Of a stretch of DNA of 42,920 bases, positions 4,764 through 21,063 are shown piece by piece. The position numbers and the translations under genes are program-made. A model generated the notes under the pieces. That model saw nothing but the letters and a program-made list of their open reading frames with translations, had not been told where the DNA came from and did no database searches. Positions within the stretch are counted from its first letter, which is position 1. Every line of letters starts with the position of its first letter. The stretch is taken from the NCBI GenBank assembly GCA_007125005.1, contig SLDY01000001.1, positions 1-42,920 on the forward strand. Direction: 5' to 3'. Source of the stretch: Natronohydrobacter sp. (GTDB lineage Bacteria > Pseudomonadota > Alphaproteobacteria > Rhodobacterales > Rhodobacteraceae).

Positions 4764-4775
4764 GAAAGATCCGCC

Positions 4776-5918
4776 ATGACTGACACCATTGCCCTGTCCG
4801 ACCGCGGCCTGACCCTGACGCTTGGAGAAACGCCGCACTATTTCAACTATTTCTGGCTGCGCGATGCCTGCACCAGCTGCATCGATCCGCAAACCCGTGA
4901 GCGGATTTTCGACTGTTCCGCGCTGCCAAATCCACCCAGGGCGACCGCTGCATGGATCGAGGGTGATCATTTGCGCCTGTCATGGCAGGATGAAGCGGTC
5001 GTGTCCTCTGTGCCGCTATCGCTGCTGCACGAGATATCCGCGACGGGCCGCCCGCATGACCCTGCGGACCTGCCCCGCAGATTGTGGATGGCGGATTTCG
5101 AGCCACAGATCGCGCGCATCCCGCAAGCGGATGTGTTGCACTCGGATGCAGGCCGCGCGCAATTCTGCCGCGCGCTGATCGAGGATGGTATCGCGATTGT
5201 CACAGGCATGGAGCCGGGTAAGGAGAGCCTGACGGCGCTGGTGGAAACTCTGGGCAGCATCAGCCCGTCGGCCGAGGGGTATTTCTTCGAGGTGCGTGTC
5301 GAGATCGCGCCGACCAATCTGGCCTTCACCGCCGGGCCGTTGGAAATGCACACTGACCTGCCCAGCGAAGAAGCAGCACCCGGTCTGCAATTCCTGCATT
5401 GTCTGGAAAACACTGTCGAGGGCGGCATGTCGCTGTTTCTGGATGGGGCGGCTGTGGCTGAAGCGCTGCGTGCGGAAGACCCCGACGCCTTCGCGCTGCT
5501 GGCTGCGCATGACATTCCGTTCTTCTATCGCCATGACCATCTCGACTACCGCGCCCATCAGCGCGTGATTGAAACGGACCCCCAAGGCCGCGTGACCGGC
5601 GTGACCATCTCGCAGCATTTGCAGGACACGCTCGATCTGCCGCAGGAGTTGCTGGACACATATTACCCGGCTTTCGTGAAATTCATCCGGCTGATGCAGC
5701 AAGACCGCTTCCGTGTGCGGTTTCGCTCGCAAGCGGGTAATTGTGTTGTGTTCGACAATCACCGTATCGTGCATGGGCGCGAAGGCTATGTGGCCGAAAG
5801 CGGCAAGCGGCATTTGCGCGGCTGCTATTGTGACCGGGGGGGCTTGCGCAGCACCTACCGCGTTCTCGCGAAGCAGGGTTATGACGGGCTGGCCGCGCCC
5901 GCCCGCGCGACGGCCTGA
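4776..5918 (+). CDS. Gamma-butyrobetaine hydroxylase-type 2-oxoglutarate/Fe(II) dioxygenase
   Basis: A 380-residue protein with the two-part build of the gamma-butyrobetaine/trimethyllysine hydroxylase family. The N-terminal DUF971-like zinc domain carries YFWLRDAC with Cys32 and Cys35. The double-stranded beta-helix has iron ligands His192 and Asp194 (MHTDLP) and His333 in DNHRIVHGRE; Arg335 fits the 2-oxoglutarate-binding arginine. The family hydroxylates C3 of gamma-butyrobetaine to make L-carnitine, using O2 and 2-oxoglutarate and releasing succinate and CO2. It starts 12 bases after the aldolase-like gene and ends just before a strong hairpin, so it closes the operon. Its presence beside sarcosine oxidase suggests use of quaternary or methylated amines. 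Family call strong; the exact substrate could be a gamma-butyrobetaine analogue. Confidence 0.88.
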   Translation: MTDTIALSDRGLTLTLGETPHYFNYFWLRDACTSCIDPQTRERIFDCSALPNPPRATAAWIEGDHLRLSWQDEAVVSSVPLSLLHEISATGRPHDPADLPRRLWMADFEPQIARIPQADVLHSDAGRAQFCRALIEDGIAIVTGMEPGKESLTALVETLGSISPSAEGYFFEVRVEIAPTNLAFTAGPLEMHTDLPSEEAAPGLQFLHCLENTVEGGMSLFLDGAAVAEALRAEDPDAFALLAAHDIPFFYRHDHLDYRAHQRVIETDPQGRVTGVTISQHLQDTLDLPQELLDTYYPAFVKFIRLMQQDRFRVRFRSQAGNCVVFDNHRIVHGREGYVAESGKRHLRGCYCDRGGLRSTYRVLAKQGYDGLAAPARATA

Positions 5919-5924
5919 CAAGTT

Positions 5925-5946
5925 GGCCGGGTCGCAAGACCCGGCC
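5925..5946. terminator. Perfect hairpin between convergent genes, likely terminator
   Basis: A 9-bp perfect GC-rich stem (GGCCGGGTC with GACCCGGCC) is closed by a GCAA tetraloop of the very stable GNRA kind. It fills the 35-base gap between the plus-strand dioxygenase stop (5918) and the minus-strand aldehyde dehydrogenase stop (5954). No long T-run follows on either strand, so it may work as a bidirectional RNA end-stabiliser or a weak intrinsic terminator. Confidence 0.7.
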
Positions 5947-5953
5947 GCTTCGC

Positions 5954-7384
5954 TCAAGGCTGGAAGGGTGGGCGGACTTTCACCTCGTAGAATTCTGCCA
6001 GCCCATACGCGCCGCCTTCGCGGCCATTGCCGGATTGCTTGAACCCACCAAAAGGCGAGCCGTAATCCGTCGCGCGCCCGTTGATATGGATACCGCCTGC
6101 GCGCAAGCGACGCGCCACGCGCGCGGCGCGCGCTGCATTATTTGTGGCAAGATAGGCATCCAGTCCGTAAGGCGTGTCATTGGCAATGGCGATGGCCTCC
6201 TCTTCGCTGTCGAAGGGGATCATCACCAGAACCGGGCCGAAGATTTCCTCCTGTGCGATGCTCATATCGTTGCGCACATCGGCAAAGAGGGTGGGCTTCA
6301 CATACCAGCCCGCCTCGAACCCTTGGGGTTTGCCCAAGCCCCCCACAACCAGCCGCGCGCCCTCCTCGATGCCTTTCTGGATCATCCTTTGCACACGTTC
6401 ATACTGGATCTGATCGAAAAGAGGGCCAATGTGATTGCCCTCTTCCAGCGGGTCGCCCACAGCTTGTGCCCGTGCCGCCTGTGCTGCGAGTTCGACGGCC
6501 CGGTCATAGACACTGCGCTCAACCAGCATCCGGGTGGGCGCATTGCAGGACTGCCCAGTGTTGGCGAAACACTCCAGCACGCCTTCGGAGACGCGGGCTT
6601 CAAGATCGGCATCTGCAAAGATGATATTGGGTGATTTCCCGCCTAGCTCCAATGCCACGCGCTTGACGCTATCGGCCGCATTCTTGGTGACAGAAATCCC
6701 CGCGCGGGTCGATCCGGTGAAAGACATCATCGCTACATCCGGATGGCGCGACAGGGCCGCTCCGACCGTTGGTCCATCCCCGAACACAAGGTTGAACACG
6801 CCCTTGGGAAAGCCCGCCTCATGGATCATTTCTGCATAGAGATGCGCAGAGAGCGGTGTGTGCTCTGACGGTTTGAGCACACAAGTATTGCCCGCCGCGA
6901 GGGCAGGGATCACTTTCAGCGCGATCTGGTTCACAGGCCAGTTCCACGGTGTAATCAACCCACATACGCCAATCGGCTCATGGGAAAGAATATCGCCATT
7001 CGGCAGGGTTTCTTCTTCCTTAATCGCGTCTAACGCGTACAGAAAGGCGCGCAGGTGCCCGGTGCCGGAGGCCGCCTGTTGCTCGCGCGACAAAGAGATC
7101 GGCGCGCCCATCTCGGCTGTGATCGCCTGCGCCATCTCTTCTTCGCGCGCGACGCTGATTTCCAGAAGACGTAGAAGATAGGCGCGGCGCTCGGGCTTTG
7201 GCGCGAAGCCCCAAGTTTCGAACGCCGCCTTTGCCGCAGCCACGGCTCGGTCCACATCCGCCGCATTGCCCAGTGTCACTGTGCCGATCCTGCTGTTGGT
7301 AGCAGGGTTCAGGATTGGCATGGTTTGCGTGCCGCATGGTGTGATCCAGGCGCCATCGATGTAGAAGCGGTTGATATCGGTCAT
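5954..7384 (-). CDS. NAD(P)-dependent aldehyde dehydrogenase
   Basis: A 476-residue member of the aldehyde dehydrogenase superfamily, which oxidises aldehydes to acids via a thiohemiacetal. The conserved PWNWPVNQ segment is at residues 146-153, KPSEHTP at 171-177, the general-base Glu246 lies in LELGGKSPN and the nucleophile Cys280 in [11 protein letters not shown]. The context around the cysteine differs from classical betaine aldehyde dehydrogenase, so betB is not assigned. The start overlaps the upstream GMC oxidoreductase stop as ATGA with GGAGG in front, so the two are translationally coupled. A GMC alcohol oxidase followed by an aldehyde dehydrogenase implies two-step oxidation of an alcohol (choline-like or polyol-derived) to a carboxylate. 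The substrate is inferred only. Confidence 0.9.
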
Positions 7385-8964
7385 CTGTTATCCTCCAGTA
7401 TCAGCTCTGCCGCGCGAGCGGCGAGCATCATTGTCGGCGCGTTGGTATTGCCCGAGGTAATATTGGGAAAGGCCGAGGCATCGACAACCCGCAGCCGATC
7501 CGTGCCATGCACCCGCAGCCGTGCATCAATGACAGAGCGCGCAGGATCATCGCCCATGCGACATGTGCAACTGGGATGAAACACGGTCGACGCACGCGCG
7601 CGGAAATCCGACAAAAGGGCGTCGTCATCGAGTGCCAGGAGATCGGGACCAATTGGCGACCGCCGCGCGCGCGACATGGTCGCGCTCTGTGCCAGTGATT
7701 GTAGCAGATGCCCTGCGCGGATAGCGCTCGCACAGTCGTCCTGCGTGGACAGTGAGTTCGGGAAAATCTTCGGCGGGTCATCCGGGTTGCGAGAAGCGAT
7801 GCAGATCTCGCCTCGGCTGGTCGGGCGACACGGTTGCGCAGAGAGAATAAACCCTGATGCAGAGGGGACCATCGGTCCCTCCGAACTATAGGAATAGACC
7901 ATCGGGTTACAGTATATCTGTGTATCCGGTGCTTGCTCGGGATTTGATGCAATAAACCCACCGATTTGATTGATTGGAACTGCAAGCGGGCCAGTGCGGG
8001 TTGCCAGATAGCGCGCTCCGTTCAGCAAACGCCCCTGCAGCGAGCCAAGTGCGGCATTGAGCGTCTTGGGAAATGCTGCGAAACTGTAGGAAATGGCGAG
8101 ATGATCCTGAAGCCCGCGCCCAACCTCCGACAGCGGATTGTGCACATCGATACCATGTTCCTGCAGAAGAGTGCCCGGCCCGATCCCCGAGAGTTGCAGC
8201 AATTGTGGCGAGTGGATCGCGCCCGCCGATAGAATGACCTCACGCCGCGCTCGCGCTGTGACCAAAGCACCATGCTTGCGATAAATCACTCCGTCTGCAG
8301 TGCCATCCTCGATAACGATCCGTTGCACCTGTGCGTGCGTTTCCAGACGGACGCGACCGCGCCGCATGGCAGGGCGCAGAAACGCATCCGCTGCAGACCA
8401 GCGCCGCCCTTTCCAGACGGTGCTGCGATAGTGGCCAAGCCCGGATTGAGCGGTGTTGAGGTCCTCCAGTACAGGCCATCCGATTTCGGCGGCAGCGGTC
8501 AGGAAGGATTGGGAGAATGAGTGCATCATGCGCGACAGGTCACTGACACGGATCGGACCGGGGTCGGCCTGCAGCCCCTTGTGTTCGAGGCTGTCATAGA
8601 TCGCGCAGACCGTCTGCCAGTCCCATCCGCGCGCACCTGCTTTCGCCCAGTCATCAAAATCTACTGGCAAACCGCGCATATAGGTCATCGCATTGATAGA
8701 GCTGCACCCGCCTACAACCCGACCGCGGGGCCAGAACCCGCGTCGCCCTGCAAGCCCCGCATCTTCTTCGGTCGGACATGTCGTAGAAATGCGAGGATCC
8801 TTATAGGCAAACGCATAACCCAGCGGCACCTTGACCCAGAAGTAACGATCAGAGCCGCCCGCCTCAAGAACCAGGATTCTATTCCGCGGATCCTTGCTCA
8901 GCCGGTCTGCCAAAACACAGCCAGCCGAGCCCGCGCCAATTATGATATAGTCATACTCTATCAC
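7381..8964 (-). CDS. GMC-family FAD-dependent alcohol oxidoreductase (choline dehydrogenase-like)
   Basis: A 527-residue flavoprotein of the glucose-methanol-choline family. It shows the N-terminal FAD-binding loop [13 protein letters not shown] (residues 10-22), the GMC signature around [13 protein letters not shown] (about 79-91), the second signature [16 protein letters not shown] in the middle, and the C-terminal catalytic-His region [10 protein letters not shown] followed by [10 protein letters not shown]. The start is GTG (no ATG is available), six bases after an AAGGA. It probably takes electrons from a primary alcohol to the respiratory chain or O2, and the overlapping aldehyde dehydrogenase would finish the oxidation. 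A divergent LysR gene 170 bases away is the likely regulator. Choline is one candidate substrate, but betB/betI partners are not recognisable. Confidence 0.9.
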
Positions 8965-10122: not shown

Positions 10123-11121
10123 TCAGGGTTCAGAATCTGCGGCGCTATGACCGTCAGTGCCAAGCCCATATGTGCGTTCGCTGATGGGATGGGAGTGGAT
10201 CGCAGCTTTCAAGGCCTCAAGAAAAGCGGTTTCTGCGCGATTGAGCGTTGCTTTCGGATTCCATGCCAGATGCACATCGATCGCAGGCGGGTTGGTATAG
10301 GGTGGAAGCCGCCATAGCAGACCATCTGAAACATCACGCGCCACGACATGCAAAGGCAAGGGGCCAATCCCAAGCCCGGCAATGACCATGCGACGCACTT
10401 CCTCCAGATGGCTGGACGTACCAATGATTTGTTCATTCAGCTCCGATTGAGCCCGTAACAAGGTCACAGAGCGAAGGGCATCATGTAACCTGTCAGTCTC
10501 GAAGCTCACCGCCGAATGCCCGGCCAGATCACTTTGCTGTAGCCGCGCGCGCCCGAATAACGGATGTGGCGGGCCACAGAACAGGCCAAAGAATTCGCGA
10601 TAAAGTCTCAGATATTCAATTTTCGGATCGCGCCTGTGCACAAGGCAGATGGCAAAAGACGCTGTGCGTGCAGTGACACTGGCCAGCGCAGCACTTGAGC
10701 CAAGCACCGAAATCGACAAGGTGGCGCGCGGGTGGAGAGTGTGAAACGAGGCAAGTACTTGATCAAATAATGGGCAAACGACATGACTGGCCACCGCGAT
10801 CCGCACATGGCCTGTGACCTCGTCAGTCATATCGCGCATCAATGTGGATAGCCGATGCACGGCTCCGTGGATCTCGACAGCTTCACGATACAAAACGGCG
10901 CCCGCACGGGTCAGCTCATAGCGTCCTGGGGCGCGATCAATCAGGCGCTTTCCGATAATTTCTTCAAGCTTTTTCAATGCGGTAGAAACGGAGGGTTGTG
11001 TGATTCGCAACCGCTGTGCAGCGTCGGTGATCGAGCGTGACTCAACCATGACCACGAAACTGCGCAATAGATTCCAGTCCAGATCCCGGGTCAGACGATC
11101 CGTGTCATGAGGTTCAGTCAT
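10123..11121 (-). CDS. LysR-family transcriptional regulator divergent from the ABC transporter operon
   Basis: A 332-residue LysR protein. The helix-turn-helix lies at about residues 16-75 (ITDAAQRLRITQPSVSTALKKLEE) and is followed by the effector-binding domain. The first ~12 residues are an uncharacteristic polar lead, so the start could be slightly downstream. It is separated from the transporter/catabolic operon by only 106 bases on the opposite strand and is the best candidate for its regulator. The known D-glutamate cassette (dgcN/dgcA) in other proteobacteria also has a LysR regulator (DgcR), but whether this gene is its counterpart cannot be told from sequence alone. It is convergent with the other LysR gene, with a 94-base gap that shows no convincing terminator. 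Confidence 0.9.
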   Translation of the reverse strand: MTEPHDTDRLTRDLDWNLLRSFVVMVESRSITDAAQRLRITQPSVSTALKKLEEIIGKRLIDRAPGRYELTRAGAVLYREAVEIHGAVHRLSTLMRDMTDEVTGHVRIAVASHVVCPLFDQVLASFHTLHPRATLSISVLGSSAALASVTARTASFAICLVHRRDPKIEYLRLYREFFGLFCGPPHPLFGRARLQQSDLAGHSAVSFETDRLHDALRSVTLLRAQSELNEQIIGTSSHLEEVRRMVIAGLGIGPLPLHVVARDVSDGLLWRLPPYTNPPAIDVHLAWNPKATLNRAETAFLEALKAAIHSHPISERTYGLGTDGHSAADSEP

Positions 11122-11156: not shown

Positions 11157-11227
11157 TTGCTTTATGCGTCGATGCTTTGCAATCAGGAAGCGTAGGCATT
11201 TTCAGACCGTTCTGCAGGAAGAAAACC

Positions 11228-12094
11228 ATGTCGGTCGAAGCACGAGAGAAGCGCCAGCCGTGGATATTGCTTTCCCCCGCTTTAGGGGCAGTAGCGCTTT
11301 TATTGTTGGTGCCGCTTTTGTTTATCGTGGTTTATTCTTTCTGGCTGCGCTCGGCGGTCGGGCCAGACACGGTGGGGTTTCACCTTGATAACTGGCAGCG
11401 CGCGCTGACCGATCCTTTCTATCGCTATATATTGCTTAACACGCTCAAGATTGCGGCGATCACGACGTTTTTCTGTGCGTTGCTGGGCTATCCGGCGGCC
11501 TATTTCATCACGCGATCAAGCGGCAACAAGCTGCTGTTGTTGCTGTTGCTGATGCTACCCTTCTGGATCAGCTACATCATTCGCACAATGAGCTGGATCA
11601 ACATTCTGGGCAGCTCGGGCGCGCTGAACACGCTGCTGATGGCCATGGGCATCACCTCATCTCCTATCCAGATGCTCTATAATGAGGCCACGGTCATTTT
11701 GGGGTTGGTCCATTTCCTGCTGCCCTTCATGGTCCTGAATATCTATGTGAGCCTCGACGGGATCGACACTAATCTGGAAGACGCGGCAACCTCTCTGGGG
11801 GCAACGCGTTGGCAGGCTTTCCTGCAAGTGACTCTGCCATTATCGCTGCCCGGCCTCGCGGCAGGGGGGCTGCTGTGCTTTGTCTTGGGTGCGGGCACTT
11901 ACATCACGCCGCTGATCCTTGGCGGGCCGCGCGATGCGATGTTCGCCAATCTTGTGTTCGAGGCGATCATCACTCAGCTCAACTGGCCGATGGGCTCGGC
12001 CTTGTCGCTGCTACTGCTGATCGTGCTTGGCGCGCTGGTGGCGCTCTACAACCGTTATCTGGGCATGTCGCAACTGACAAAGGGGCTGGGATAA
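11228..12094 (+). CDS. ABC transporter permease, spermidine/putrescine (PotB-like) type
   Basis: A 288-residue inner-membrane permease with about six hydrophobic segments; the first is at residues 13-38 and a Leu-rich one near 100-115. The binding-protein-dependent transport signature EDAATSLGATRWQAFLQVTLPLSLPG (EAA loop that contacts the ATPase) lies near residues 184-209. The ATG at 11228 follows AGGAAG; an upstream TTG at 11177 would add a charged tail without a ribosome site. This is the first gene of a ten-gene operon. It pairs with the next permease, its TAA overlapping that gene's ATG by one base. The family imports polyamines or related organic cations and amino-acid derivatives. Confidence 0.92.
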   Translation: MSVEAREKRQPWILLSPALGAVALLLLVPLLFIVVYSFWLRSAVGPDTVGFHLDNWQRALTDPFYRYILLNTLKIAAITTFFCALLGYPAAYFITRSSGNKLLLLLLLMLPFWISYIIRTMSWINILGSSGALNTLLMAMGITSSPIQMLYNEATVILGLVHFLLPFMVLNIYVSLDGIDTNLEDAATSLGATRWQAFLQVTLPLSLPGLAAGGLLCFVLGAGTYITPLILGGPRDAMFANLVFEAIITQLNWPMGSALSLLLLIVLGALVALYNRYLGMSQLTKGLG

Positions 12095-12879
12095 TGGGGT
12101 GGTCTGTAATTCGCGCCTATACGATCCTTGTTTATCTGTTCATGTTCCTGCCCGTTGCCGTGGTGGTGCTGCTGTCCTTCAACCAGAACCAGTTCGGCAG
12201 CTTTCCGATGACCGGCTTTTCCTTGCGCTGGTTCGAAGCGCTGTGGAACAATGACGCAGTAATGCGGGCCTTCCGCACATCGCTGGTACTTGGCCTGCTG
12301 ACAGCGCTGATTTCCACGACGCTGGGCGTGCTGGCGAGCCTTGCGCTGGTGCGCTACGCGGTGCCAGGCAAGAACCTGATCACCACTATCCTGATCGCGC
12401 CCATTCTGGTGCCCGAAGTGGTGCTGGCGGTCGCGCTGCTCCTGTTCCTCAACTGGTTGGGCATCGGCAAAAGCTTCGCGCTCTTGCTGGCGGGCCATGT
12501 GATCTTCACGCTGCCCTTCGTAATCCTGGTGGTGCAGGCGCGGCTGGTCAGCATCCGCCGCGATGTGGAAGAGGCGGCGCTCAGCCTCGGGGCCTCGCCC
12601 GTGCAGACTTTCTTTTCCGTCACACTGCCGCTTCTGATGCCCGCCGTGGCAGCCGGCGCGCTATTTGCCTTCACGATTTCCTTTGATGACATCACCGGCA
12701 CGCTGTTCTGGAAGCCGGGCGGCGTGGAAACCGTGCCCACGCAGATCTTCTCGATGCTGCGCAATTCGATCAGCCCCGAGATCAACGCGCTGGGCACAGT
12801 GATGATCATCATTACTGTGGGCCTGCCTTTGCTGGGCGCCGCGATTGCCCGCAAGATATCCATCAAACGCGGCATGTAA
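12094..12879 (+). CDS. ABC transporter permease, spermidine/putrescine (PotC-like) type
   Basis: A 261-residue inner-membrane protein with six predicted membrane segments; the first (ILVYLFMFLPVAVVVLLSF) is at about residues 11-29. The EAA loop (EEAALSLGASPVQTFFSVTLPLLMP) is at about 166-190. The segment SFDDITGTLFW near the C-terminus is typical of PotC-type permeases. Its ATG overlaps the previous stop (TAATG), so the two permeases are translationally coupled and should form a heterodimer. Substrate range follows the binding protein and is unknown. Confidence 0.92.
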   Translation: MGWSVIRAYTILVYLFMFLPVAVVVLLSFNQNQFGSFPMTGFSLRWFEALWNNDAVMRAFRTSLVLGLLTALISTTLGVLASLALVRYAVPGKNLITTILIAPILVPEVVLAVALLLFLNWLGIGKSFALLLAGHVIFTLPFVILVVQARLVSIRRDVEEAALSLGASPVQTFFSVTLPLLMPAVAAGALFAFTISFDDITGTLFWKPGGVETVPTQIFSMLRNSISPEINALGTVMIIITVGLPLLGAAIARKISIKRGM

Positions 12880-12916
12880 GAACCGTGAGAACCCTCAACC
12901 CGACAAGGAGAAGACA

Positions 12917-14059
12917 ATGGAAAATACCAAACGTTACGAGCGCCTTCTGGAGCGCTATCGCAATGGTGATCTGGATCGGCGGAGCTTTCTGGGCCTTATC
13001 GGTGCGGCAGGGCTGGCTTATGGCGTCCAGACCCCGTTTGCAAAGATGGCCTTTGCTCAGGATGTGACGCAGGTGCGCTTCGACGGCTGGGGCGGGGTGG
13101 TCTCGGAAGCCTTCCGCCGCTACGCGTTTGACCCTTACACCGCCGCCACAGGCATCACCGTGGTCGATGGCACATTCGCAGGCGGCGACGAATATCTGGC
13201 GCAGGTGCGTTCCTCGCGTGAAGGTGAATACAACATCGCCCATTTGTCTGGCGTGTTTGACTATGCCCGCTATGTGAATTTCGGGCTGGATGTCGAACTG
13301 AACCTCGACAATATTCCGAATATGGAGCTGGTGATGGACGCGCTGACCAGTGCCTATCGGCGAGTCACGCCCGATCATCTCTCGGCGGTGCCATATAACT
13401 ACGGCACCACAGGGCTGGCCTATAACCGCAAATACATCTCGGATGAGGAAATGCGCCAAAAGGGCGCCATGATCCTGATCGATGAGGCCTATAAGGGCAA
13501 GATCGGAGGCTGGCAGGACTGGCGGACGCGGATGTGGTATGCGGCGCTGCAAACTGGCCAGAGCCCCAATGACATTCAGGATCTTGATGCGGCCTGGGAT
13601 GCAATCCGCGCCCATCGCGACCTCGCGCTGAAATACTGGGGCTCGGGGGCGGAACTGATGAGCCTTCTGGCCGAGGAAGAAATCTACGTCACCGAAGGCT
13701 GGTCAGGCCGCATTGCAGCATTGCAGGAGCAAGGGCATGATATCGGCTATTATGACCCGCCAAACGGCTTTGGCTGGCAGGAATGCCTGTTCGTGATCAA
13801 GGGTTCGCCTGTGGAAGCCTGCGAGGAGTTGATAAACTTCATGCTGGCGCCCGAAACCTCGATTGCGGTAGCAGAAGGGCAGAACTATCCGCCGGCGCTC
13901 GATGGCACCAAGGTTGATCTTGGTGCGAAGATTCCAACACTGCCCGCCTATGATCCGACTGGCACGCTCGAGGCGCTGACCTTCGCCGATCCGAATTACT
14001 GGAACGGCAATGAAGCGGAGTGGTCGGAAACCTTCGCCCGTGTGCAGCGCGGTTTCTGA
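12917..14059 (+). CDS. ABC transporter substrate-binding protein (PotD-like), Tat signal
   Basis: A 380-residue periplasmic solute-binding protein of the extracellular binding family 1 (PotD/PotF-like). The N-terminus has a twin-arginine motif (DRRSFLGLIGAAG, Arg21-Arg22) and a likely cleavage site after Ala47 (AFA-Q). Export in folded form through Tat is unusual for this class in enterics but common in Rhodobacterales. The start at 12917 follows AAGGAG. The mature domain has the WGG beginning and the two-lobe pattern of polyamine binders. It lies between the permeases and a hairpin that precedes the ATPase gene. The ligand could be a polyamine, acetylated amine or another cationic compound; the binding residues cannot be assigned with confidence. 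Confidence 0.9.
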   Translation: MENTKRYERLLERYRNGDLDRRSFLGLIGAAGLAYGVQTPFAKMAFAQDVTQVRFDGWGGVVSEAFRRYAFDPYTAATGITVVDGTFAGGDEYLAQVRSSREGEYNIAHLSGVFDYARYVNFGLDVELNLDNIPNMELVMDALTSAYRRVTPDHLSAVPYNYGTTGLAYNRKYISDEEMRQKGAMILIDEAYKGKIGGWQDWRTRMWYAALQTGQSPNDIQDLDAAWDAIRAHRDLALKYWGSGAELMSLLAEEEIYVTEGWSGRIAALQEQGHDIGYYDPPNGFGWQECLFVIKGSPVEACEELINFMLAPETSIAVAEGQNYPPALDGTKVDLGAKIPTLPAYDPTGTLEALTFADPNYWNGNEAEWSETFARVQRGF

Positions 14060-14067
14060 GTGCGGGG

Positions 14068-14087
14068 CAGGGGGGCCAGCCCCCCTG
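14068..14087 (+). other. C/G-rich hairpin in the gap between binding protein and ATPase genes
   Basis: An 8-bp perfect stem (CAGGGGGG with CCCCCCTG) with a CCAG loop starts 8 bases after the binding-protein stop. No T-run follows, so it is more likely an mRNA-stabilising or processing element, letting the binding protein be made in excess, than a full terminator. It is the hairpin half of a Rhodobacterales-like intergenic element whose tail lies at 14097-14117. Confidence 0.6.
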
Positions 14088-14096
14088 AACCCCCCG

Positions 14097-14117
14097 GAGT
14101 ACTTTTGGCGAGATGAA
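14097..14117 (+). repeat. Conserved tail of a Rhodobacterales-type intergenic element, copy 1
   Basis: Directly after the C-run following the hairpin there is a 21-base stretch beginning GAGTACTTTTGG and ending AGATGAA. A stretch identical at 19 of 21 positions lies inside ileS (36666-36686). From memory, a C-rich hairpin followed by a GGAGTATTTTTGG...GATGAAG tail is scattered between genes in many Rhodobacterales genomes; its function is not known to me. Confidence 0.55.
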
Positions 14118-14167
14118 GGGAAAGCCCTGTATTTTGCAGGCTGCTTTCCCAGGTGAAAGGGCGGATC

Positions 14168-15241
14168 ATGGGCGCTGTCAGTCTGAAAAATATCGTCAAG
14201 CGGTTCGGAGTGTTTACCGCTGTCGAGAAGACATCGCTGAGTATCGCCGAAGGAAGTTTCACCACTCTGCTGGGACCATCTGGCTGCGGCAAGACGACGA
14301 CACTGCGCATGATCGCCGGACTTCTGGATCCGACAGAGGGCGAGATAATCATCGGGGGCAAGCGCGTCAATGATGTGCCGATCTACAAGCGCAATCTGGG
14401 GTTGGTGTTCCAGAATTACGCGCTGTTTCCGCATAAGACTGTGTCTGAAAACGTGGCCTTCGGGCTGCGCTACCGCAATGTCACGAAGCCTGAGATTGCC
14501 CGGCGCGTGCAGGAGGCGCTGGAACTGGTGCAATTGCCACAGGTGGCCGCGCGCTATCCCAGGGCACTGTCAGGCGGCCAGCAACAGCGTATTGCGCTGG
14601 CGCGTGCTATTGTGATCGAGCCGGACGTGCTGCTGCTAGATGAGCCGCTTTCTGCGCTCGACGCCAATCTGCGCGAGGATATGCGCGTTGAACTCAAGCG
14701 CATTCAGGAACGAATCGGGGTGACGACTGTATTCGTGACCCATGACCAATCCGAGGCGCTGGCGATGTCCGATCAGATCGTGGTCATGTCGGATGGCCGT
14801 GTTGAGCAGGTGGGTGCCCCTGAAGAGGTGTATAATACCCCCGCCAGCGAATTTGTGGCCAAGTTTCTCGGCGCCTCGAATATTCTTGATGGCCGATGCC
14901 TCTCACGCGGGCCCGAAGGAGCCGTGCTGGAAGTGCCTGTCTTTGGCAAGGTCATTGTTCCGTCGGCAAAAGCCCCGCATCTGGTGGGCGAAGGCGCAGC
15001 CAAACTGGTCATTCGCGCAGAGAAACTTCTCTTGCGCCGCAGCCCACCCGAAAGTGGTGCTTTCAGCGCCCCTGCAGAAGTTGAAACTGTTGATTATCAG
15101 GGCCAGTCGGTACGCTATTTTGTCCGTGCGGGTAACGTGCAATTACAGGCTATAAACATGATCGACGAACGCCCTTTTCCTGCAGGTGCGCAGGTGCATA
15201 TGACACTCAGGCCGCAGGACTGCGCGGCCCTGCCCGGATAA
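14168..15241 (+). CDS. ABC transporter ATP-binding protein (PotA-like)
   Basis: A 357-residue ATPase that powers the importer encoded just upstream. Walker A is GPSGCGKT at residues 36-43, followed by the Q-loop (VFQNYALFPH), the signature LSGGQQQR, Walker B with the D-loop (VLLLDEPLSALD), and the H-loop (FVTHDQSEAL). The C-terminal ~110 residues form a TOBE-type domain, as in PotA/UgpC-like ATPases. The ATG at 14168 is chosen over a GTG at 14153 because MGAVSLKNIVKRFG is a normal beginning. A 108-base gap with a hairpin separates it from the binding-protein gene, and the aminotransferase starts only five bases after its stop. Confidence 0.94.
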   Translation: MGAVSLKNIVKRFGVFTAVEKTSLSIAEGSFTTLLGPSGCGKTTTLRMIAGLLDPTEGEIIIGGKRVNDVPIYKRNLGLVFQNYALFPHKTVSENVAFGLRYRNVTKPEIARRVQEALELVQLPQVAARYPRALSGGQQQRIALARAIVIEPDVLLLDEPLSALDANLREDMRVELKRIQERIGVTTVFVTHDQSEALAMSDQIVVMSDGRVEQVGAPEEVYNTPASEFVAKFLGASNILDGRCLSRGPEGAVLEVPVFGKVIVPSAKAPHLVGEGAAKLVIRAEKLLLRRSPPESGAFSAPAEVETVDYQGQSVRYFVRAGNVQLQAINMIDERPFPAGAQVHMTLRPQDCAALPG

Positions 15242-15246
15242 AAGCC

Positions 15247-16581
15247 ATGAGCCATCTCTTTTACCAGACCAGCCAGCGCCGCCCCCTGCTGGATCAGGCC
15301 CGCGGTGTCTATATGTGGGATGTAGACGGCAAGCGCTATCTGGACGGCTCAAGCGGTGCAATGGTGTGCAATATCGGTCATTCGAATCCAAATGTCCTGG
15401 ACGCCATGCGCCGCCAGATGGAGAAATCGACCTTCGGCTACCGTTTGCATTTCGAGACCGAGGCGTCCGAGCAACTGGCCGCCAAGACGGCCGCGCTGTG
15501 CCCAGAAGGTATGAACAAGGTATTCTTTGTCTCAGGGGGCTCGGAAGCGGTGGAATCCGCGATCAAGCTGGCGCGCCAACATGCGCTTGCTGTGGGGCAG
15601 GGAAACCGCTGGAAGGTTATCAGTCGCGCGCCAAGCTATCACGGCTGCACGTTGGGCGCCCTCGCAGTCACAGGCTATGCGCCGCTCACCGACCCGTTCG
15701 AGCCCATGATGCGCAAGATGCCGAAAATCCCTGCCCCGCGTGCCTATCTCGATGGTCTCGACCCGTCCGATCCCGCGACGGGCGCGCATTATGCGGCCAT
15801 GCTGGAGGCCGAGATCCTCGCACAAGGGGCGGACACTGTGTTGGCCTTTATCGTTGAACCTATTGGCGGCGCGTCCACTGGTGCGCTGGTGCCACCCATG
15901 GGCTATATGCAGGCTGTGGATGAGATTTGCCGCCGTTACGGTGTGCTGTTGATCCTTGATGAAGTCATGACCGGTGCAGGGCGCACGGGCCGCTTTCTTG
16001 GCCTGGAGCATTGGGATCTTAGCCCCGATATCGTGGTGCTGTCGAAGGGCTTCGCCGCAGGATATGTGCCACTTGGAGCGATTGCCGCGCGTGATGATCT
16101 GGTGCAGGCTGTGCTTGAGGGTGGCGGTTTTCTTCATGGCTTTACCTATGCGGGCAATCCTCTGGCATGTGCGGCGGGCAGCGCTGTGATCGATGAGATC
16201 GCGCGTCTGGGGTTGGTGCAGAATGCCGAAGAGATGGGCGCGGTTTTGCGCATGCGGCTTGAGGGTTTGGCAGAGCGGCATCTGATCATTGGCGATGTGC
16301 GCGGCAAGGGGCTTCTGTTGGCTTTTGAATTGATGGCCGACCGGGAGACAAAGGCTCCCCTACCTGCGCATTTGGACGCGCATCAGCGGATGGTCGATAT
16401 CGCTTATGAGATGGGCCTGATCGTCTATTCGCGCCGCACCCGCGACGGGTTGGAAGGAGATCATATCATGGTGTGCCCGCCCCTGATCGTGACCGAAGCG
16501 CATCTGGACGAAATCACCCAGGTGCTGGATGGAGCACTGACCCGGCTGGTTGACGATCTGGCTCTGTCGGAAATGGTGTGA
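15247..16581 (+). CDS. Class III PLP-dependent aminotransferase
   Basis: A 444-residue fold-type I aminotransferase of the omega-amino acid/4-aminobutyrate group. The core motif LILDEVMTGAGRTGRFLG contains the PLP-ring aspartate, and the Schiff-base lysine is Lys267 in VLSKGFAAGYVPLGAI. The phosphate-binding loop SGGSEAVESAIKLARQ is near residues 97-112. The family moves a terminal amino group from amines or omega-amino acids to pyruvate or 2-oxoglutarate. It begins five bases after the ATPase stop and is followed six bases later by the BKACE gene. In the same operon as a polyamine-type importer, a plausible role is deamination of an imported diamine, aminoaldehyde or amino acid. The exact substrate is not readable. 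Confidence 0.9.
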   Translation: MSHLFYQTSQRRPLLDQARGVYMWDVDGKRYLDGSSGAMVCNIGHSNPNVLDAMRRQMEKSTFGYRLHFETEASEQLAAKTAALCPEGMNKVFFVSGGSEAVESAIKLARQHALAVGQGNRWKVISRAPSYHGCTLGALAVTGYAPLTDPFEPMMRKMPKIPAPRAYLDGLDPSDPATGAHYAAMLEAEILAQGADTVLAFIVEPIGGASTGALVPPMGYMQAVDEICRRYGVLLILDEVMTGAGRTGRFLGLEHWDLSPDIVVLSKGFAAGYVPLGAIAARDDLVQAVLEGGGFLHGFTYAGNPLACAAGSAVIDEIARLGLVQNAEEMGAVLRMRLEGLAERHLIIGDVRGKGLLLAFELMADRETKAPLPAHLDAHQRMVDIAYEMGLIVYSRRTRDGLEGDHIMVCPPLIVTEAHLDEITQVLDGALTRLVDDLALSEMV

Positions 16582-16587
16582 GGGCGC

Positions 16588-17514
16588 ATGTCGGGGATTA
16601 TTATCACTTGTGCGTTGACAGGCTCCATCCACACGCCGAGCATGTCGCCGCATCTGCCGATCACCGGCGCGGATATCGCGCAGCAGGGGCTGGCGGCGGC
16701 GCAAGCGGGCGCATCCATCCTGCATTTGCACGCGCGCGACCCAATGACTGGCCAGCCCTCAGCCGCGCTCGATCATTTCAATGGCTTTGTGCCGGCCTTG
16801 GCGCGAGGCACAGATGCCATTCTGAACCTGTCCACAGGCGGCAGCGCAGTCATGACGCTGGAGGAACGCCTTGCCGCCCCCATGGCTATTGCGCCGGAAA
16901 TGGCTTCGCTTAACATGGGAACCATGAATTTCGCGCTTTATCCGATGCTGGGCAAAGATCGCGACTGGCTGCATGGTTGGGAAAAGCCGTTTCTTGAAGG
17001 CACGGATGATCTGGTCTTCAAGAACACGCCGCGTGATCTTACCCGCATCCTGACCGCGCTCGGCCAAGAGCGTGGCGCGCGGTTCGAGTTTGAATGCTAT
17101 GATCTGAGCCATCTCTACATGCTGCGCCACTTTGTGGATCGCGGGTTCATACAGCCGCCCTATTTCATCCAGTTCGTATTCGGGGTGCTGGGGGGCATGG
17201 GGCCGGATCCTGAAAACCTGTCGCATATGGTGCGTATCTCGGACAAGCTGTTCGGGGATGATTATTTGTTCTCGGTGCTTGCTGCGGGGCGTTACCAGAT
17301 GCCATTGATTTCCATTGCGGCGGCGATGGGCGGGCACGTTCGCGTGGGGCTGGAAGACAGCCTGACCATCGCGCGCGGCCAGCTTGCATGCTCCAATGCC
17401 GAGCAAGTGGAGAAGATACGCGAGATCGTGGAGCGACTGGGTCGCGTTGTCATGACCCCGCATCAGGTTCGCGCCACGCTGGGGCTGAAGGGTGCGAGGA
17501 ATATTAATGCGTGA
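16588..17514 (+). CDS. Beta-keto acid cleavage enzyme (BKACE, DUF849)
   Basis: A 308-residue TIM-barrel metalloenzyme of the family founded by 3-keto-5-aminohexanoate cleavage enzyme (Kce). It condenses a beta-keto acid with acetyl-CoA, giving acetoacetate and a shortened acyl-CoA. Zinc ligands His46 and His48 (ILHLHARD) occupy the same positions as in Kce; the expected third ligand is Glu256 in GLEDS. The NLSTGG motif (80-85) is also present. Members act on different beta-keto acids, including dehydrocarnitine, so the aminotransferase next door may form or precede its substrate. The stop overlaps the next start by eight bases. Family firm, substrate open. Confidence 0.9.
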   Translation: MSGIIITCALTGSIHTPSMSPHLPITGADIAQQGLAAAQAGASILHLHARDPMTGQPSAALDHFNGFVPALARGTDAILNLSTGGSAVMTLEERLAAPMAIAPEMASLNMGTMNFALYPMLGKDRDWLHGWEKPFLEGTDDLVFKNTPRDLTRILTALGQERGARFEFECYDLSHLYMLRHFVDRGFIQPPYFIQFVFGVLGGMGPDPENLSHMVRISDKLFGDDYLFSVLAAGRYQMPLISIAAAMGGHVRVGLEDSLTIARGQLACSNAEQVEKIREIVERLGRVVMTPHQVRATLGLKGARNINA

Positions 17515-17995
17515 CACTGAGTTTCGCAACGTCACGAGTGTGGGTGATCTGGAACGGCTGGAGAATGCCTTGCGCGCACTGAGTGCAGAGATCGCTGAGG
17601 ATTACGCCACAGACAAGGCAGCGCTCGCGGAGGCGGTTCTGGGCGCGCAACCTGCCGCACATGGGCTGTTGGCGCTGGTCAGCGGGCAAACACTTGGCGC
17701 GGCGCTTTACAGCCCATTGTTTTCAACTGTGCGCGGCGCGGCAGGGGTGTATGTGTCCGACCTTTGGGTGAATGCTGATGCGCGTGGGCAGGGGCTTGGC
17801 GCACACCTTCTGGCACAGGTCATGCGCGCTGGAGCGGCGCGCTGGCAAGCAACATGGCTCAAGCTTGCGGTTTATGACCACAGTCGCGACTCACAGCAGT
17901 TTTACAAGCGCTTGGGTTTTGAGCCCGCGTGCGGGATGCAGGAGATGAGCCTCGGCCCGCAGGGCGTGGGCGCGTTGATAAAGAGGAACTCATGA
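17507..17995 (+). CDS. GNAT-family N-acetyltransferase
   Basis: A 162-residue single-domain acetyltransferase using acetyl-CoA. The acetyl-CoA-binding motif A is VSDLWVNADARGQGLGAHLL (the RGQGLG pyrophosphate loop), and the C-terminal SQQFYKRLGFEP is the usual motif B. The D-L-x-V-x-x-x-x-RGxGxG pattern resembles diamine/spermidine-type acetyltransferases, but that is only a resemblance. The ATG at 17507, with GAGGA seven bases upstream, overlaps the BKACE stop by eight bases; the end overlaps the amidohydrolase start as ATGA. Position between BKACE and a deacetylase suggests it acetylates an amine intermediate of the same pathway. Confidence 0.88.
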   Translation: MRDTEFRNVTSVGDLERLENALRALSAEIAEDYATDKAALAEAVLGAQPAAHGLLALVSGQTLGAALYSPLFSTVRGAAGVYVSDLWVNADARGQGLGAHLLAQVMRAGAARWQATWLKLAVYDHSRDSQQFYKRLGFEPACGMQEMSLGPQGVGALIKRNS

Positions 17996-19008
17996 AAGCC
18001 ATATTCGACGACCGGCAGCGCCTGCATGACCCGCAGCATTTTATGGCCAATGGCAAGACCTATCCCAGCCCGGAATCTCCCGAACGCATCGTCCGGCTGA
18101 AGGCGGGTGCGCAGGCGGCCGGCTGTCGGTTTGAGCCCCCCCAGGATGCCGGGCTCGCCCCTTTAGCCGCAGTTCACAGCGCGGAATATCTGCGTTTCCT
18201 GCAAAACATCCATACTCGTTGGCAGCGTATCCCCGATGCAGGGACGGAGGTGATCCCGAATATCCATCCCGCCAACCGAAGGGATAATTACCCCAAATCG
18301 GCGCTCGGGCAGGCGGGTTATCATCAGACCGACACATCCTGCCCGATCGGGGCGCATACATGGGAGTCGGCCTATTGGTCTGCGCAATCAGCGATTGCCG
18401 GGGCTGATCTAATATTTGCAGGTGAGAGGGCGGTCTATGTGCTTTCACGTCCGCCTGGACACCATGCCTTCACGGATCTGGCGGGCGGATTTTGTTTTTT
18501 GAACAACTCCGCCATTGCCGCCGAGCGGTTGCGCAAGAGGGGGCTGCGGCCCGCGATCCTTGATGTTGATGTGCATCACGGAAATGGCACGCAAGGCATA
18601 TTCTATGAGCGCGATGATGTGCTGACAGTTTCGCTTCATGCTGACCCCGACCGCTTCTATCCGTTCTTCTGGGGCGGCGCGCAGGAACGCGGCGAAGGGC
18701 GCGGGATGGGGTATAACCTGAACCTACCCCTGCCACGCGGCACAGATGACGCTGGCTATCTGGCCGCTCTGGACACCGCACTAGCACGCATCGAGGCGTT
18801 TGGCGCAGATGCGGTGGTCGTGGCGCTGGGACTGGATGCGCATATAGATGACCCGTTCAAGGGGCTGGCAATTACCACGCAGGGCTTTCAGGCAATGGCA
18901 CAGGCAATTGCAGGGCTCGGCCTGCCGCAGGTGTTGGTGCAGGAGGGTGGCTATGTAAGCGATGCGCTGGCGGATAATTTGACAGCGTTTCTGGATGGGG
19001 TTTCATGA
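17992..19008 (+). CDS. Histone-deacetylase-fold amidohydrolase, acetylpolyamine amidohydrolase-like
   Basis: A 338-residue zinc amidohydrolase of the arginase/deacetylase fold. The active-site His pair is His157-His158 in RPPGHHAF. Zinc ligands are Asp193 and His195 in DVDVHHGNGT and Asp282 in GLDAHIDDPF, and the EGGY loop near the C-terminus carries the transition-state tyrosine. Length and motif spacing match Mycoplana-type acetylpolyamine amidohydrolase, which removes acetyl groups from acetylputrescine, acetylcadaverine and acetylspermidine. It overlaps the GNAT gene upstream and the dgcA-like gene downstream, both as ATGA. In this setting it could hydrolyse an N-acetylated amine, or the N-acetyl-L-glutamate formed by DgcA; the second idea is inference. 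Confidence 0.9.
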   Translation: MKAIFDDRQRLHDPQHFMANGKTYPSPESPERIVRLKAGAQAAGCRFEPPQDAGLAPLAAVHSAEYLRFLQNIHTRWQRIPDAGTEVIPNIHPANRRDNYPKSALGQAGYHQTDTSCPIGAHTWESAYWSAQSAIAGADLIFAGERAVYVLSRPPGHHAFTDLAGGFCFLNNSAIAAERLRKRGLRPAILDVDVHHGNGTQGIFYERDDVLTVSLHADPDRFYPFFWGGAQERGEGRGMGYNLNLPLPRGTDDAGYLAALDTALARIEAFGADAVVVALGLDAHIDDPFKGLAITTQGFQAMAQAIAGLGLPQVLVQEGGYVSDALADNLTAFLDGVS

Positions 19009-20036
19009 AGATTGAATTTCACGAGCGCTATCTGAAGAAGCGCTTTCCGTTGCGGATCTCGCGCGGTGAGATACGCGGCGGTGAAAACCTGTTCATTTCG
19101 GTGAGCGAGGGCATGCTGACCGGATGGGGCGAAATGGCCCCCGGTGCCAGTGAAGGCGCGGCAGATGTTGCTGAAGGCCGCGCGCAGCTTGAGCGCTTTT
19201 GCGCGCAGGGGCTGGATGGCGCGATTCACGACATCTGGGCGCGTGCCCATTCGGCAGGTGTTGGCGCATGTGCGTTGGCGGCACTGGATATCGCGCTGTG
19301 GGATCTTCGCGCCAAACAGGCGGGGATGCCGCTCTACCGCCTTCTGGGTCTGGCGCGGCGTGGGGTAGTTTCATCGCTGACTGTGGGGATCAACCCGCCT
19401 GAGGTGGTGCGCGAGCGTGTACCGCTTTTGCTGGACCGGGGGGCCAAGGCACTTAAGATCAAACTGGGCAGTGCTGAAGGGATCGAGGCTGACAAAACCA
19501 TGTTTGCAGCCGTGCACGAAGCAGCGACAGGCAGTGACGCTGTCTTGCGCGTTGATGCGAATGGTGGATGGACCTTGGCGGATGCGCGCCATATGCTAGC
19601 CTGGCTCGCTGATCGGGGCGTGGAATATGTAGAGCAACCCCTTGTTGAAGGGGCAGAAGAGCAGTTGCCTGAGTTGTTCAGCGGGAGAGCCTTGCCGATA
19701 TTCGTCGATGAATCCTGCCGTTTGTCTACTGACATTCCGGGCTTTGCCGATTGCGTGGATGGAGTGAACCTGAAATTGATGAAATGCGGCGGCATTACAG
19801 AAGCGCTGCGCATCGTTGCCACGGCCCGCGCGCATGGTTTGAAGACCATGATTGGATGTATGGGCGAAAGCTCGGTGGCGATTGCAGCAGGGGCCAGCCT
19901 TTCAGCGCTGTTCGATTATATTGACCTCGATTCCCATCTTAACCTTGACCCGGATCCAGCGACAGGCGCACCATTTGAGCATGGTATCACCCTGCCCGCT
20001 GATCAGCCCGGCCACGGAGGCAGCCTTTATGCTTGA
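19005..20036 (+). CDS. dgcA: Enolase-superfamily racemase, DgcA-like (N-acetyl-D-glutamate racemase/dipeptide epimerase)
   Basis: A 343-residue member of the muconate-lactonizing/dipeptide-epimerase branch of the enolase superfamily. Catalytic KIK (Lys151/Lys153), metal ligands Asp184 (DANGGW), Glu210 (EQP) and Asp235 (DES), and the lysine of NLKLMKCGG (257-260) are all present. By sequence alone it would be an L-Ala-D/L-Glu epimerase. Being directly coupled to a DUF1611 gene matches the DgcN-DgcA pair described for D-glutamate catabolism in marine proteobacteria, where DgcA converts N-acetyl-D-glutamate to the L form. It overlaps its neighbours by 4 and 8 bases. The dipeptide role remains an alternative. 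Confidence 0.82.
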   Translation: MKIEFHERYLKKRFPLRISRGEIRGGENLFISVSEGMLTGWGEMAPGASEGAADVAEGRAQLERFCAQGLDGAIHDIWARAHSAGVGACALAALDIALWDLRAKQAGMPLYRLLGLARRGVVSSLTVGINPPEVVRERVPLLLDRGAKALKIKLGSAEGIEADKTMFAAVHEAATGSDAVLRVDANGGWTLADARHMLAWLADRGVEYVEQPLVEGAEEQLPELFSGRALPIFVDESCRLSTDIPGFADCVDGVNLKLMKCGGITEALRIVATARAHGLKTMIGCMGESSVAIAAGASLSALFDYIDLDSHLNLDPDPATGAPFEHGITLPADQPGHGGSLYA

Positions 20037-21063
20037 GCCGTCCCAACCCATTGCTCTGTTTGCCGAGGCCACAATGGGCAGCCTGAATGCAAAGATGGCG
20101 GAAGGGATCCTGCGCTATGGCAGCAATCCCGTGGTTGCCGTGATCGACAGCACGCAGACAGGTAAGCGCGTTCGCGACTTATGCACAATAGACAGCGATG
20201 TGCCCATCGTGGGATCGCTTGCAAAGGCACAGGCGCTCGGCGCACAGGTTCTGGTTCTGGGCACCGCGCCCTCGGGCGGTCGACTGCCGCAAGAATGGGT
20301 ATCGGTTCTGGAACAAGCCGTGGCGGAGGGCATGTCACTCGTTAACGGTATGCATGACCGCTTGCACCCAATGTTCGAAAGCAGGCTGCGCGCAGGGCAA
20401 TGGGTATGGGATCTGCGCGTGCCTCAGGGCGACGCACCACGCATTGGTATGGCGCGTGCCGCAGGCTTGAATAATACACGCGTCTTGATGGTGGGCACGG
20501 ACATGGCCATCGGCAAGATGACCGCCGGGCTGGAACTGACCCGCAGTTTGCAGCTCTTGGGGCGCAATGCAGCATTTCTGGCCACAGGCCAAACCGGCAT
20601 TGCAATCACCGGGCGTGGCATTCCGCTTGACGCAATTCGTGTCGATCATGCAGGGGGCGCGGTCGAGCGTATGGTGCTGGAAGCCGCCGAGCACGAGATT
20701 GTGGTGGTTGAAGGGCAAGGCTCTCTGTTGCATCCGGGCAGCACTGCAACCCTGCCGCTGATGCGCGGCAGCGCCTGTACGCATATGATTCTGTGTCACC
20801 GCGCTGGTATGCAGACACTGGATGAATTGGACAGCGTGCGCATTCCACCACTGCGCGATGTTATTGCCCTCAATGAGATCGTAGCACGCGCAGCAGGTGC
20901 ATTGACTCCTGCTAAAGTCGTGGCAATTGCCCTGAATACGGCGCGGTTGACACAGGCAGAGGCTGAGGTCGCCTTGAGAGCGATCGAGGATGACACAGGC
21001 TTAGCCGCAGCGGATCCGGTCCGGCAGGGGGCAGAAAAACTGGCAAAGGCAGTGTTGGAATAA
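20029..21063 (+). CDS. dgcN: DUF1611 protein, DgcN-like D-glutamate N-acetyltransferase
   Basis: A 344-residue DUF1611 protein. It shows a P-loop-like GTDMAIGKMTAGLELTRSL segment in the middle, then ATGQTGIAITGRGIP and VEGQGSLLHPGS, which are the family hallmarks. DgcN was shown to acetylate D-glutamate with acetyl-CoA, before racemisation by DgcA. The ATG at 20029 has GGAGG nine bases upstream and overlaps the dgcA stop by eight bases; the frame extends upstream without support. It is the last gene of the operon, followed by 692 gene-poor bases. The family call is firm; D-glutamate as substrate is transferred from the studied homologues. Confidence 0.85.
   Translation: MLEPSQPIALFAEATMGSLNAKMAEGILRYGSNPVVAVIDSTQTGKRVRDLCTIDSDVPIVGSLAKAQALGAQVLVLGTAPSGGRLPQEWVSVLEQAVAEGMSLVNGMHDRLHPMFESRLRAGQWVWDLRVPQGDAPRIGMARAAGLNNTRVLMVGTDMAIGKMTAGLELTRSLQLLGRNAAFLATGQTGIAITGRGIPLDAIRVDHAGGAVERMVLEAAEHEIVVVEGQGSLLHPGSTATLPLMRGSACTHMILCHRAGMQTLDELDSVRIPPLRDVIALNEIVARAAGALTPAKVVAIALNTARLTQAEAEVALRAIEDDTGLAAADPVRQGAEKLAKAVLE

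Follow-up and report, generated by a model that had tools for sequence, protein, structure and literature searches.

The window analysed here, a 42,920-nucleotide stretch of Natronohydrobacter sp. DNA (assembly GCA_007125005.1, contig SLDY01000001.1, positions 1 to 42,920), contains a run of ten genes at 11177-21063 that looks like a nutrient-degrading operon. We judge it about evenly likely that this operon degrades an imported amino compound by way of a free beta-keto acid, with an N-acetyl group acting as a protecting group. A first-pass annotation had drawn attention to a unit of four overlapping genes for a GNAT N-acetyltransferase, a histone deacetylase (HDAC)-fold zinc amidohydrolase, a DgcA-like racemase and a DgcN-like DUF1611 protein. 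These genes are real and their Pfam families are confirmed, and they turn out to close a run that starts further upstream and includes the commonest partners of the HDAC-fold gene, a class-III aminotransferase (AT3) and a member of the BKACE family, neither of which that annotation named.

The claimed overlaps of 4-8 bases measure 4, 4 and 8 bases: the GNAT stop (17995) overlaps the HDAC ATG (17992) by 4 bases, the HDAC stop (19008) overlaps the DgcA-like ATG (19005) by 4, and the DgcA-like stop (20036) overlaps the DgcN-like ATG (20029) by 8. A further 8-base overlap links the BKACE stop (17514) to the GNAT ATG (17507), and a gap of 6 bases separates AT3 from BKACE, both of which join the run behind an ABC transporter at 11177-15241. 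From this spacing we infer co-transcription of the whole run. A promoter scan gave 6 promoter-like sites against 5.5 expected, with none standing out, and a terminator scan gave 13 terminator-like sites against 9.0 expected, none of which was used.

A conserved cassette around the HDAC-fold gene

Searching the genome collection with the HDAC-fold protein gave at least 579 relatives, of which the best 80 were kept as loci (L-numbers below); as these are nearly all labelled Rhodobacterales, the sample is biased toward close relatives. L055 and L056 are one contig under two labels (a Roseobacter and an unverified Flavobacteriia metagenome-assembled genome), and the Flavobacteriia label of L056 is probably a binning error. 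Loci were included in a count only if enough flanking sequence was available: 2.8 kb or more before the HDAC gene for upstream genes (75 loci), 7 kb or more for Pot transporter genes (66 loci), and 2.1 kb or more after it for downstream genes (73 loci). AT3 lies upstream of the HDAC gene in 70/75 loci, BKACE in 68/75 and both in 67/75. GNAT stands beside the HDAC gene in 57/75, so that the acetyl-on/acetyl-off pairing proposed in the first-pass annotation is recurrent, and AT3, BKACE and GNAT are all present in 54/75. PotA and PotB were found upstream in 48/66 loci, and the transporter class differs among loci (Pot, amino acid and branched-chain types). Among eight plasmid loci taken by HDAC similarity (L084-L091), three carry both AT3 and BKACE (L085, L086, L087). 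Many of the 80 loci have, at the same place, a LysR-type regulator similar to that of the window. As every protein passes a Pfam cut-off and other genomes show the genes in the same order, the arrangement is not due to chance; among the loci examined, the AT3-BKACE-GNAT-HDAC cassette occurs in many Alphaproteobacteria from the sea and in some from soil.

The slot after the HDAC gene is filled differently from lineage to lineage. It holds DgcA and DgcN in 14 of the 73 loci (the pair was not found in the other 59), a DAO-family FAD oxidoreductase in 31 loci from L016 to L083 (for example L024:11020-12123), and an M20 hydrolase with an alanine-racemase-type protein in 7 loci and on plasmid L087; a RidA-type protein was grouped in 8 loci, near the FAD oxidoreductase in some. 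These slot counts are rough, since they come from clustering the output of a crude open reading frame caller.

Displacement of BKACE beside the aminotransferase

Two routes are known for the cleavage of beta-keto acids, BKACE and a CoA-transferase with a thiolase, and both are found beside the same aminotransferase. The AT3 protein was searched against 398 Pseudomonadota genomes, 36 of which matched at 1e-100, the window's own included; the 22 non-own sites at or above 48% identity were examined together with two of the 15 weaker ones, with matches to cassette genes counted when they covered at least half of the query. BKACE lies beside AT3 in 16 of the 22 sites. In three others (L125, L129, L141) it is replaced by subunits A and B of a 3-oxoacid CoA-transferase together with a thiolase, no site has both systems, and three have neither (L138, L140, L142). 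In the genome of L129 (G046), the NF053538 profile for BKACE gives no match at all. The replacement recurs at plasmid locus L115, which belongs to a further set of eight plasmid loci (L113-L120) taken by AT3 similarity; by PGAP names it carries the CoA-transferase/thiolase/ArgE version, with no BKACE and no HDAC in its 19 kb, and the subunits of its CoA-transferase score above the curated thresholds for 3-oxoacid CoA-transferase. In the same set, L114, L118 and L120 have the full cassette. This mutual replacement is, in our view, the strongest sign that AT3 yields a free beta-keto acid.

The deacetylase position varies in a similar way. The HDAC gene is present at 16/22 AT3 sites and GNAT at 14/22, an ArgE/DapE deacylase is found without HDAC at three (L125, L128, L129), and both are missing at L124, L142 and L133, the last of which stops at a contig end. 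DgcA and DgcN were found at none of the 22 sites, and the two weaker sites (L144, L145) have no such cassette. Close to the cassette, L086, L118 and L120 (Shinella and Roseateles records among them) have a gene annotated as thioesterase, and L132, L133, L135 and L137 have a gene similar to it (43-45%). Directly upstream of AT3, a Pararhizobium plasmid (L114) and nine Alphaproteobacteria loci (L132-L140) carry an N,N-dimethylformamidase-beta-like gene.

Substrate-site residues of the HDAC-fold, GNAT and BKACE proteins

The nearest folds to the HDAC-fold protein are 3men (48% identity, named acetylpolyamine aminohydrolase) and the acetylpolyamine amidohydrolase (APAH) of M. ramosa (3q9b; 42%), and its model is of fair quality only (predicted local distance difference test score, pLDDT, 78.6; weak at 99-115, 163-166 and 221-233). 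As in the M. ramosa enzyme, the catalytic apparatus of the family is retained: D193, H195 and D282, which we take to be the zinc site, and Y321, presumably the catalytic Tyr, are invariant across 25 aligned sequences. The substrate site differs. In the window protein, F17, L105 and S116 take the positions of E17, E106 and E117 in M. ramosa APAH, E17 and E106 presumably being acidic residues of the polyamine site further to E117. E117 forms a salt bridge with the polyamine (PMC5454378). Across 81 sequences (the window and the 80 loci) the three positions hold F/Y, V/I/T/L/A/G and A/S, with an acid in none, and position 102 is K or R in 79/81.

These residues bear on a route for acetylated polyamines, in which GNAT would acetylate putrescine or cadaverine, AT3 would oxidise the free amine, an aldehyde dehydrogenase encoded elsewhere would form the acid and the HDAC-fold enzyme would deacetylate it. 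Besides the HDAC fold neighbours named APAH, the PotA- and PotB-like genes and the absence of BKACE from L019, L024 and L044 speak for it. So does the GNAT model, which is good (pLDDT 94.6) and has among its top folds an integron cassette protein, a probable N-acetyltransferase, thialysine N-acetyltransferase (2bei) and spermidine/spermine acetyltransferases, with ornithine acetyltransferase (8xj5) lower in the list; at identities of about 14-24% overall, and 15-24% for the close folds such as the thialysine and spermidine/spermine enzymes, these neighbours are a hint only. Nevertheless, we consider this route quite improbable, as BKACE is present in most loci and CoA-transferase/thiolase takes its place in L115, L125, L129 and L141, the polyamine-site acids are missing in 81/81 HDACs, the genes at 11177-21063 include no aldehyde dehydrogenase, and several lineages have amino acid-type transporters. 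The separate polyamine acetyl cycle offered as an alternative in the first-pass annotation is disfavoured, since the same acids are missing throughout and most loci encode a step that would cleave a beta-keto acid. The solute-binding protein of the window is only weakly similar to solved polyamine-binding proteins (top match 42 bits), and the polyamine transporter of R. pomeroyi is assigned to SPO3466-3469 (PMC10130141).

The window BKACE has 3e49, 3e02 and then the characterised BKACE15 of Paracoccus denitrificans (8rio; also 8rip, 9hnf) as its nearest solved chains. The zinc-binding His pair, H46 and H48, is kept in 80/80 sequences. Position 14, presumably Glu in the 3-keto-5-aminohexanoate enzyme (Kce) of the same family, is Ile in 78/80 and Val in 2/80, and is likewise Ile in BKACE15, with which the surrounding sequence is shared as well. 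The confirmed substrates of BKACE15 are neutral beta-keto acids (PMC11961710). An Ile or Val here would suit the substrate proposed below, as an acetamido chain is neutral like those substrates. Unlike BKACE15 in that comparison, the window protein sits within an aminotransferase-GNAT-HDAC cassette. It scores 457 bits against the NF053538 cut-off of 430, the second lowest over-cut-off row in 149 genomes of the family, and we did not trust the profile's name as a guide to its substrate for that reason; the name appears to reflect an in vitro substrate and not the natural one.

A proposed acetyl-protected route and its candidate substrates

Gene families, their order, conservation, displacement and residue differences can be fitted to a single series of reactions, whose steps, order and substrate are conjectural. 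The ABC transporter would import an amino compound, GNAT would place an acetyl group on its terminal primary amine, and AT3 would transaminate the beta-amine to give a beta-keto acid, which BKACE would cleave with acetyl-CoA to an omega-acetamidoacyl-CoA and acetoacetate. The HDAC-fold enzyme would then strip the acetyl group, either after thioester hydrolysis or on the thioester itself, leading to an omega-amino acid such as gamma-aminobutyrate. On chemical grounds, the acetyl group may serve to block ring closure of the amino-ketone intermediate (6-amino-3-oxohexanoate). The DgcA-like/DgcN-like pair would be an addition confined to particular lineages; its probable role is to acetylate and racemise a related amino acid with a non-glutamate-like side chain, possibly using the HDAC-fold enzyme as its deacetylase.

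By analogy, beta-lysine or N6-acetyl-beta-lysine is perhaps the best candidate substrate. Aerobic beta-lysine degradation in Pseudomonas was reportedly described by Barker and co-workers around 1981, and its enzymes are said to include an N6-acetyl-beta-lysine transaminase (EC 2.6.1.65) and a 4-acetamidobutyryl-CoA deacetylase (EC 3.5.1.51); we know of no genes for this pathway. The reported pathway resembles the cassette in using an acetyltransferase, a transaminase, an acetyl-CoA-dependent cleavage and thioester hydrolysis/deacetylation, for each of which the cassette or its surroundings offer one candidate gene, and differs in that no DgcA or DgcN is known from it. Candidates for the acetyltransferase, transaminase, cleavage enzyme and deacetylase are encoded together in the window and in the 54 loci counted above. 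It is a tentative proposal, well short of an even chance, that the cassette encodes the enzymes of this pathway, with the HDAC-fold enzyme deacetylating 4-acetamidobutyrate or its CoA ester and the DgcA-like/DgcN-like proteins forming a new, non-glutamate acetylation-racemisation pair.

Several results weigh against the acetyl-protected route or against beta-lysine as its substrate. GNAT was not found beside AT3 and BKACE in 13/67 loci, while L019, L024 and L044 have AT3, GNAT and HDAC without BKACE, and no BKACE was found at L138 or L140. In more distant relatives the cassette is frequently missing. On plasmids, five of the eight HDAC-chosen loci lack the AT3-BKACE combination (L084, L088, L089, L090, L091; L089 has BKACE only, and L090 has AT3-type proteins at 30-36% identity), L116, L117 and L119 hold nothing similar to the cassette, and a Rhizobium plasmid (L113) with HDAC present has only a 133-residue BKACE remnant (10345-10746), made of N- and C-terminal parts, between AT3 and GNAT. 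The GNAT fold list also includes aminoglycoside and ribosomal-protein acetyltransferases, and the NF053538 equivalog is named for a 3,5-dioxohexanoate enzyme, that is, for another beta-keto acid. The genes that follow HDAC in different lineages (FAD amine oxidase, Alr-type racemase, DgcA/DgcN) belong to alpha-amino-acid families, which beta-lysine does not explain, as plain beta-lysine has no alpha stereocentre. Finally, the lysine 2,3-aminomutase family (TIGR00238) has no match in the window's own genome (G000), and a KamA-type query matched none of the 144 fetched loci, so that beta-lysine would need to be imported. TIGR00238 was found in 15 of the 149 family genomes, 11 of them over cut-off; six of these 11 have an over-cut-off BKACE, compared with 61/149 overall, which gives no support for co-occurrence, in a count made by eye with BKACE as a rough proxy for the operon. 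The genome of L129 has an over-cut-off gene of this family on a contig other than that of its cassette.

As no aminomutase match was found in the genome or the fetched loci, some loci lack BKACE and alpha-amino-acid modules follow HDAC, the substrate may instead be a related or conjugated beta-amino acid. That another acylated beta-amino acid or conjugate is degraded by the same logic, a reading that overlaps with the acetyl-protected route, is possible at a modest level of confidence. In its favour, relatives carry additional genes of amidase type, namely creatininase-family genes, the PGAP-named N,N-dimethylformamidase-beta-like protein, a C45 hydrolase in L072 and two M20 proteins in L115, and the variable transporter class points the same way. 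Beta-aminoisobutyrate, opines, ectoine-type compounds and acyl-homoserine lactones were considered on paper, and none seemed to account as well for BKACE, GNAT and HDAC together.

If the acetyl-protected route with beta-lysine holds, genes can be proposed for a pathway known to us only as biochemistry, and an HDAC-fold enzyme would gain a metabolic role beyond the deacetylation of polyamines or proteins. These bacteria would then feed on N6-acetyl-beta-lysine, which is an osmolyte of archaea. A testable function would also be available for a common operon whose members are annotated '3-keto-5-aminohexanoate cleavage protein' and 'histone deacetylase family protein'. The operon is not described in the titles or abstract openings among the open-licence literature matches listed.

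The DgcA-like and DgcN-like proteins

The names DgcA and DgcN hold at family level only. The window DgcN-like protein scores 222 bits with NF041892 (equivalog cut-off 480) and the DgcA-like protein 193 bits with NF042940 (cut-off 400), so that the family membership given in the first-pass annotation stands and equivalog status does not. Over-cut-off DgcN was found in 113 of the 149 family genomes, including the window's own, where the genuine protein (G000:C49, 560 bits) adjoins a DgcA homologue (L104). In an alignment of 23 window-type and 13 genuine racemases (L082, at 30%, was left out), position 23 is Arg in 13/13 genuine DgcA proteins and in 0/23 of the window type; this Arg aligns with what is presumably the Glu-binding Arg of Ala-Glu epimerase. 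The catalytic positions K151 and K153 (KxK), the metal ligands D184, E210 and D235, and the opposing K257 are kept in 23/23. Six of nine window-type DgcN paralogues (about 190-230 bits; genomes G000, G020, G024, G037, G064, G126) have an over-cut-off BKACE no more than 4 kb away, compared with 0/113 over-cut-off DgcN within 10 kb and none of 15 extra matches at 165-177 bits, distances that were read from tables by eye and from which broken contigs might hide some pairs.

The D-glutamate route suggested in the first-pass annotation, with the HDAC-fold enzyme as its missing deacetylase, shares with the window both protein families, adjacent genes and the catalytic residues of the racemase, and the pair does adjoin HDAC. 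This reading is nonetheless very improbable, given the genuine DgcN and DgcA elsewhere in the genome, window scores below half of both cut-offs, the missing Arg23 and the different relation to BKACE. The pair therefore probably acts on something other than glutamate. Membership of the DgcN or DgcA family alone is an insufficient basis for annotating a D-glutamate enzyme.

Conserved adjacency of HDAC to DUF1611/dgcA genes, a further point in the first-pass annotation, is seen beyond the 14/73 loci in L105-L108 and L110, each with the window-type pair next to an HDAC of this kind (L106 and L012 probably belong to one species). L105, L107 and L108 combine a branched-chain-type transporter, AT3, BKACE, GNAT, HDAC, DgcA and DgcN; L109 has DgcA/DgcN and AT3/BKACE with no GNAT or HDAC; and in L111 and L112 BKACE is absent from the stretch examined around DgcA/DgcN. 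The DgcA/DgcN-linked HDACs occupy two places in the HDAC tree, one of 14 rows (100/100) and one of 6 rows (98/95), and the DgcA-like query had no plasmid match at E 1e-60. By this distribution, the pair travels with the cassette in several lineages and is dispensable for it. The N-succinylamino acid racemase operon (GNAT, racemase, hydrolase) follows a similar logic of acyl-on, racemise and acyl-off, with the differences that the window hydrolase is of another family and that the core is mostly without a racemase in the loci examined.

Another reading is a conversion of D- to L-amino acids, in which the DgcN-like protein would acetylate a D-amino acid other than Glu, the DgcA-like protein would racemise the N-acetyl compound and the HDAC-fold enzyme would deacetylate it, leaving AT3 and BKACE for later steps. 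L110 is consistent with it, since the 16 kb examined there contain HDAC-DgcA-DgcN and a transporter of oligopeptide type but neither AT3 nor BKACE, as are the conserved catalytic Lys and metal ligands and the Alr-type racemase or FAD amine oxidase that fills the same slot in other lineages. APAH-type HDACs, however, as a family cut amides of unbranched primary amines and are not known to act on N-acetyl-alpha-amino acids, the pair is missing from most HDAC loci and from all 22 AT3 sites, and L109 keeps it without HDAC, all of which makes this conversion, including the later roles for AT3 and BKACE, rather unlikely. After DgcN, L054 (Roseovarius) has a histidine kinase and a sigma-54-type response regulator (L054:13165-16136), while L072 (Roseibaca ekhonensis) has a C45-family acyltransferase/hydrolase (L072:6896-7705).

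Features of the operon and neighbouring genes

The genes of the run and the divergent regulator are listed in Table 1. The open frame of the PotC-like permease extends from 11809, and its start is uncertain.

Table 1. Genes of the ten-gene run and its divergent regulator (window coordinates), with supporting matches and proposed roles.
Feature	Position	Strand	Remarks
LysR-type regulator	10123..11121	-	Divergent from operon; Pfam HTH_1 + LysR_substrate
ABC permease, PotB-like	11177..12094	+	BPD_transp_1; best NCBIfam PotB 199 bits, under cut-off; exact start uncertain
ABC permease, PotC-like	about 12055..12879	+	BPD_transp_1; best NCBIfam PotC 210 bits, under cut-off
PotD-like extracellular solute-binding protein	12845..14059	+	SBP_bac_8
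ABC ATPase, PotA-like	14153..15241	+	ABC_tran + TOBE_2; TIGR01187 potA 362 bits, cut-off 355.6 passed
Class-III aminotransferase (AT3)	15247..16581	+	Aminotran_3 7e-101; proposed beta-amine to beta-ketone
BKACE	16588..17514	+	BKACE (PF05853) 5e-101; NF053538 457 bits
GNAT N-acetyltransferase	17507..17995	+	Acetyltransf_1 2.6e-12; proposed terminal-amine acetylation
HDAC-fold zinc amidohydrolase, 338 aa	17992..19008	+	Hist_deacetyl 4.1e-73; proposed omega-acetamido deacetylase
DgcA-like racemase, enolase superfamily, DgcA paralogue	19005..20036	+	MR_MLE_N/C
DgcN-like DUF1611 protein, DgcN paralogue	20029..21063	+	DUF1611_N/C 3e-67

A neighbouring gene group at 2998-8964 encodes a TauD-type dioxygenase, a 3-hydroxyisobutyrate-dehydrogenase-like protein, an aldehyde dehydrogenase and a choline-dehydrogenase-like GMC protein. 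The best matches of the dioxygenase, both under cut-off, are 2-trimethylaminoethylphosphonate dioxygenase and gamma-butyrobetaine dioxygenase, and judging by its gene content this group looks like one for quaternary amine catabolism.

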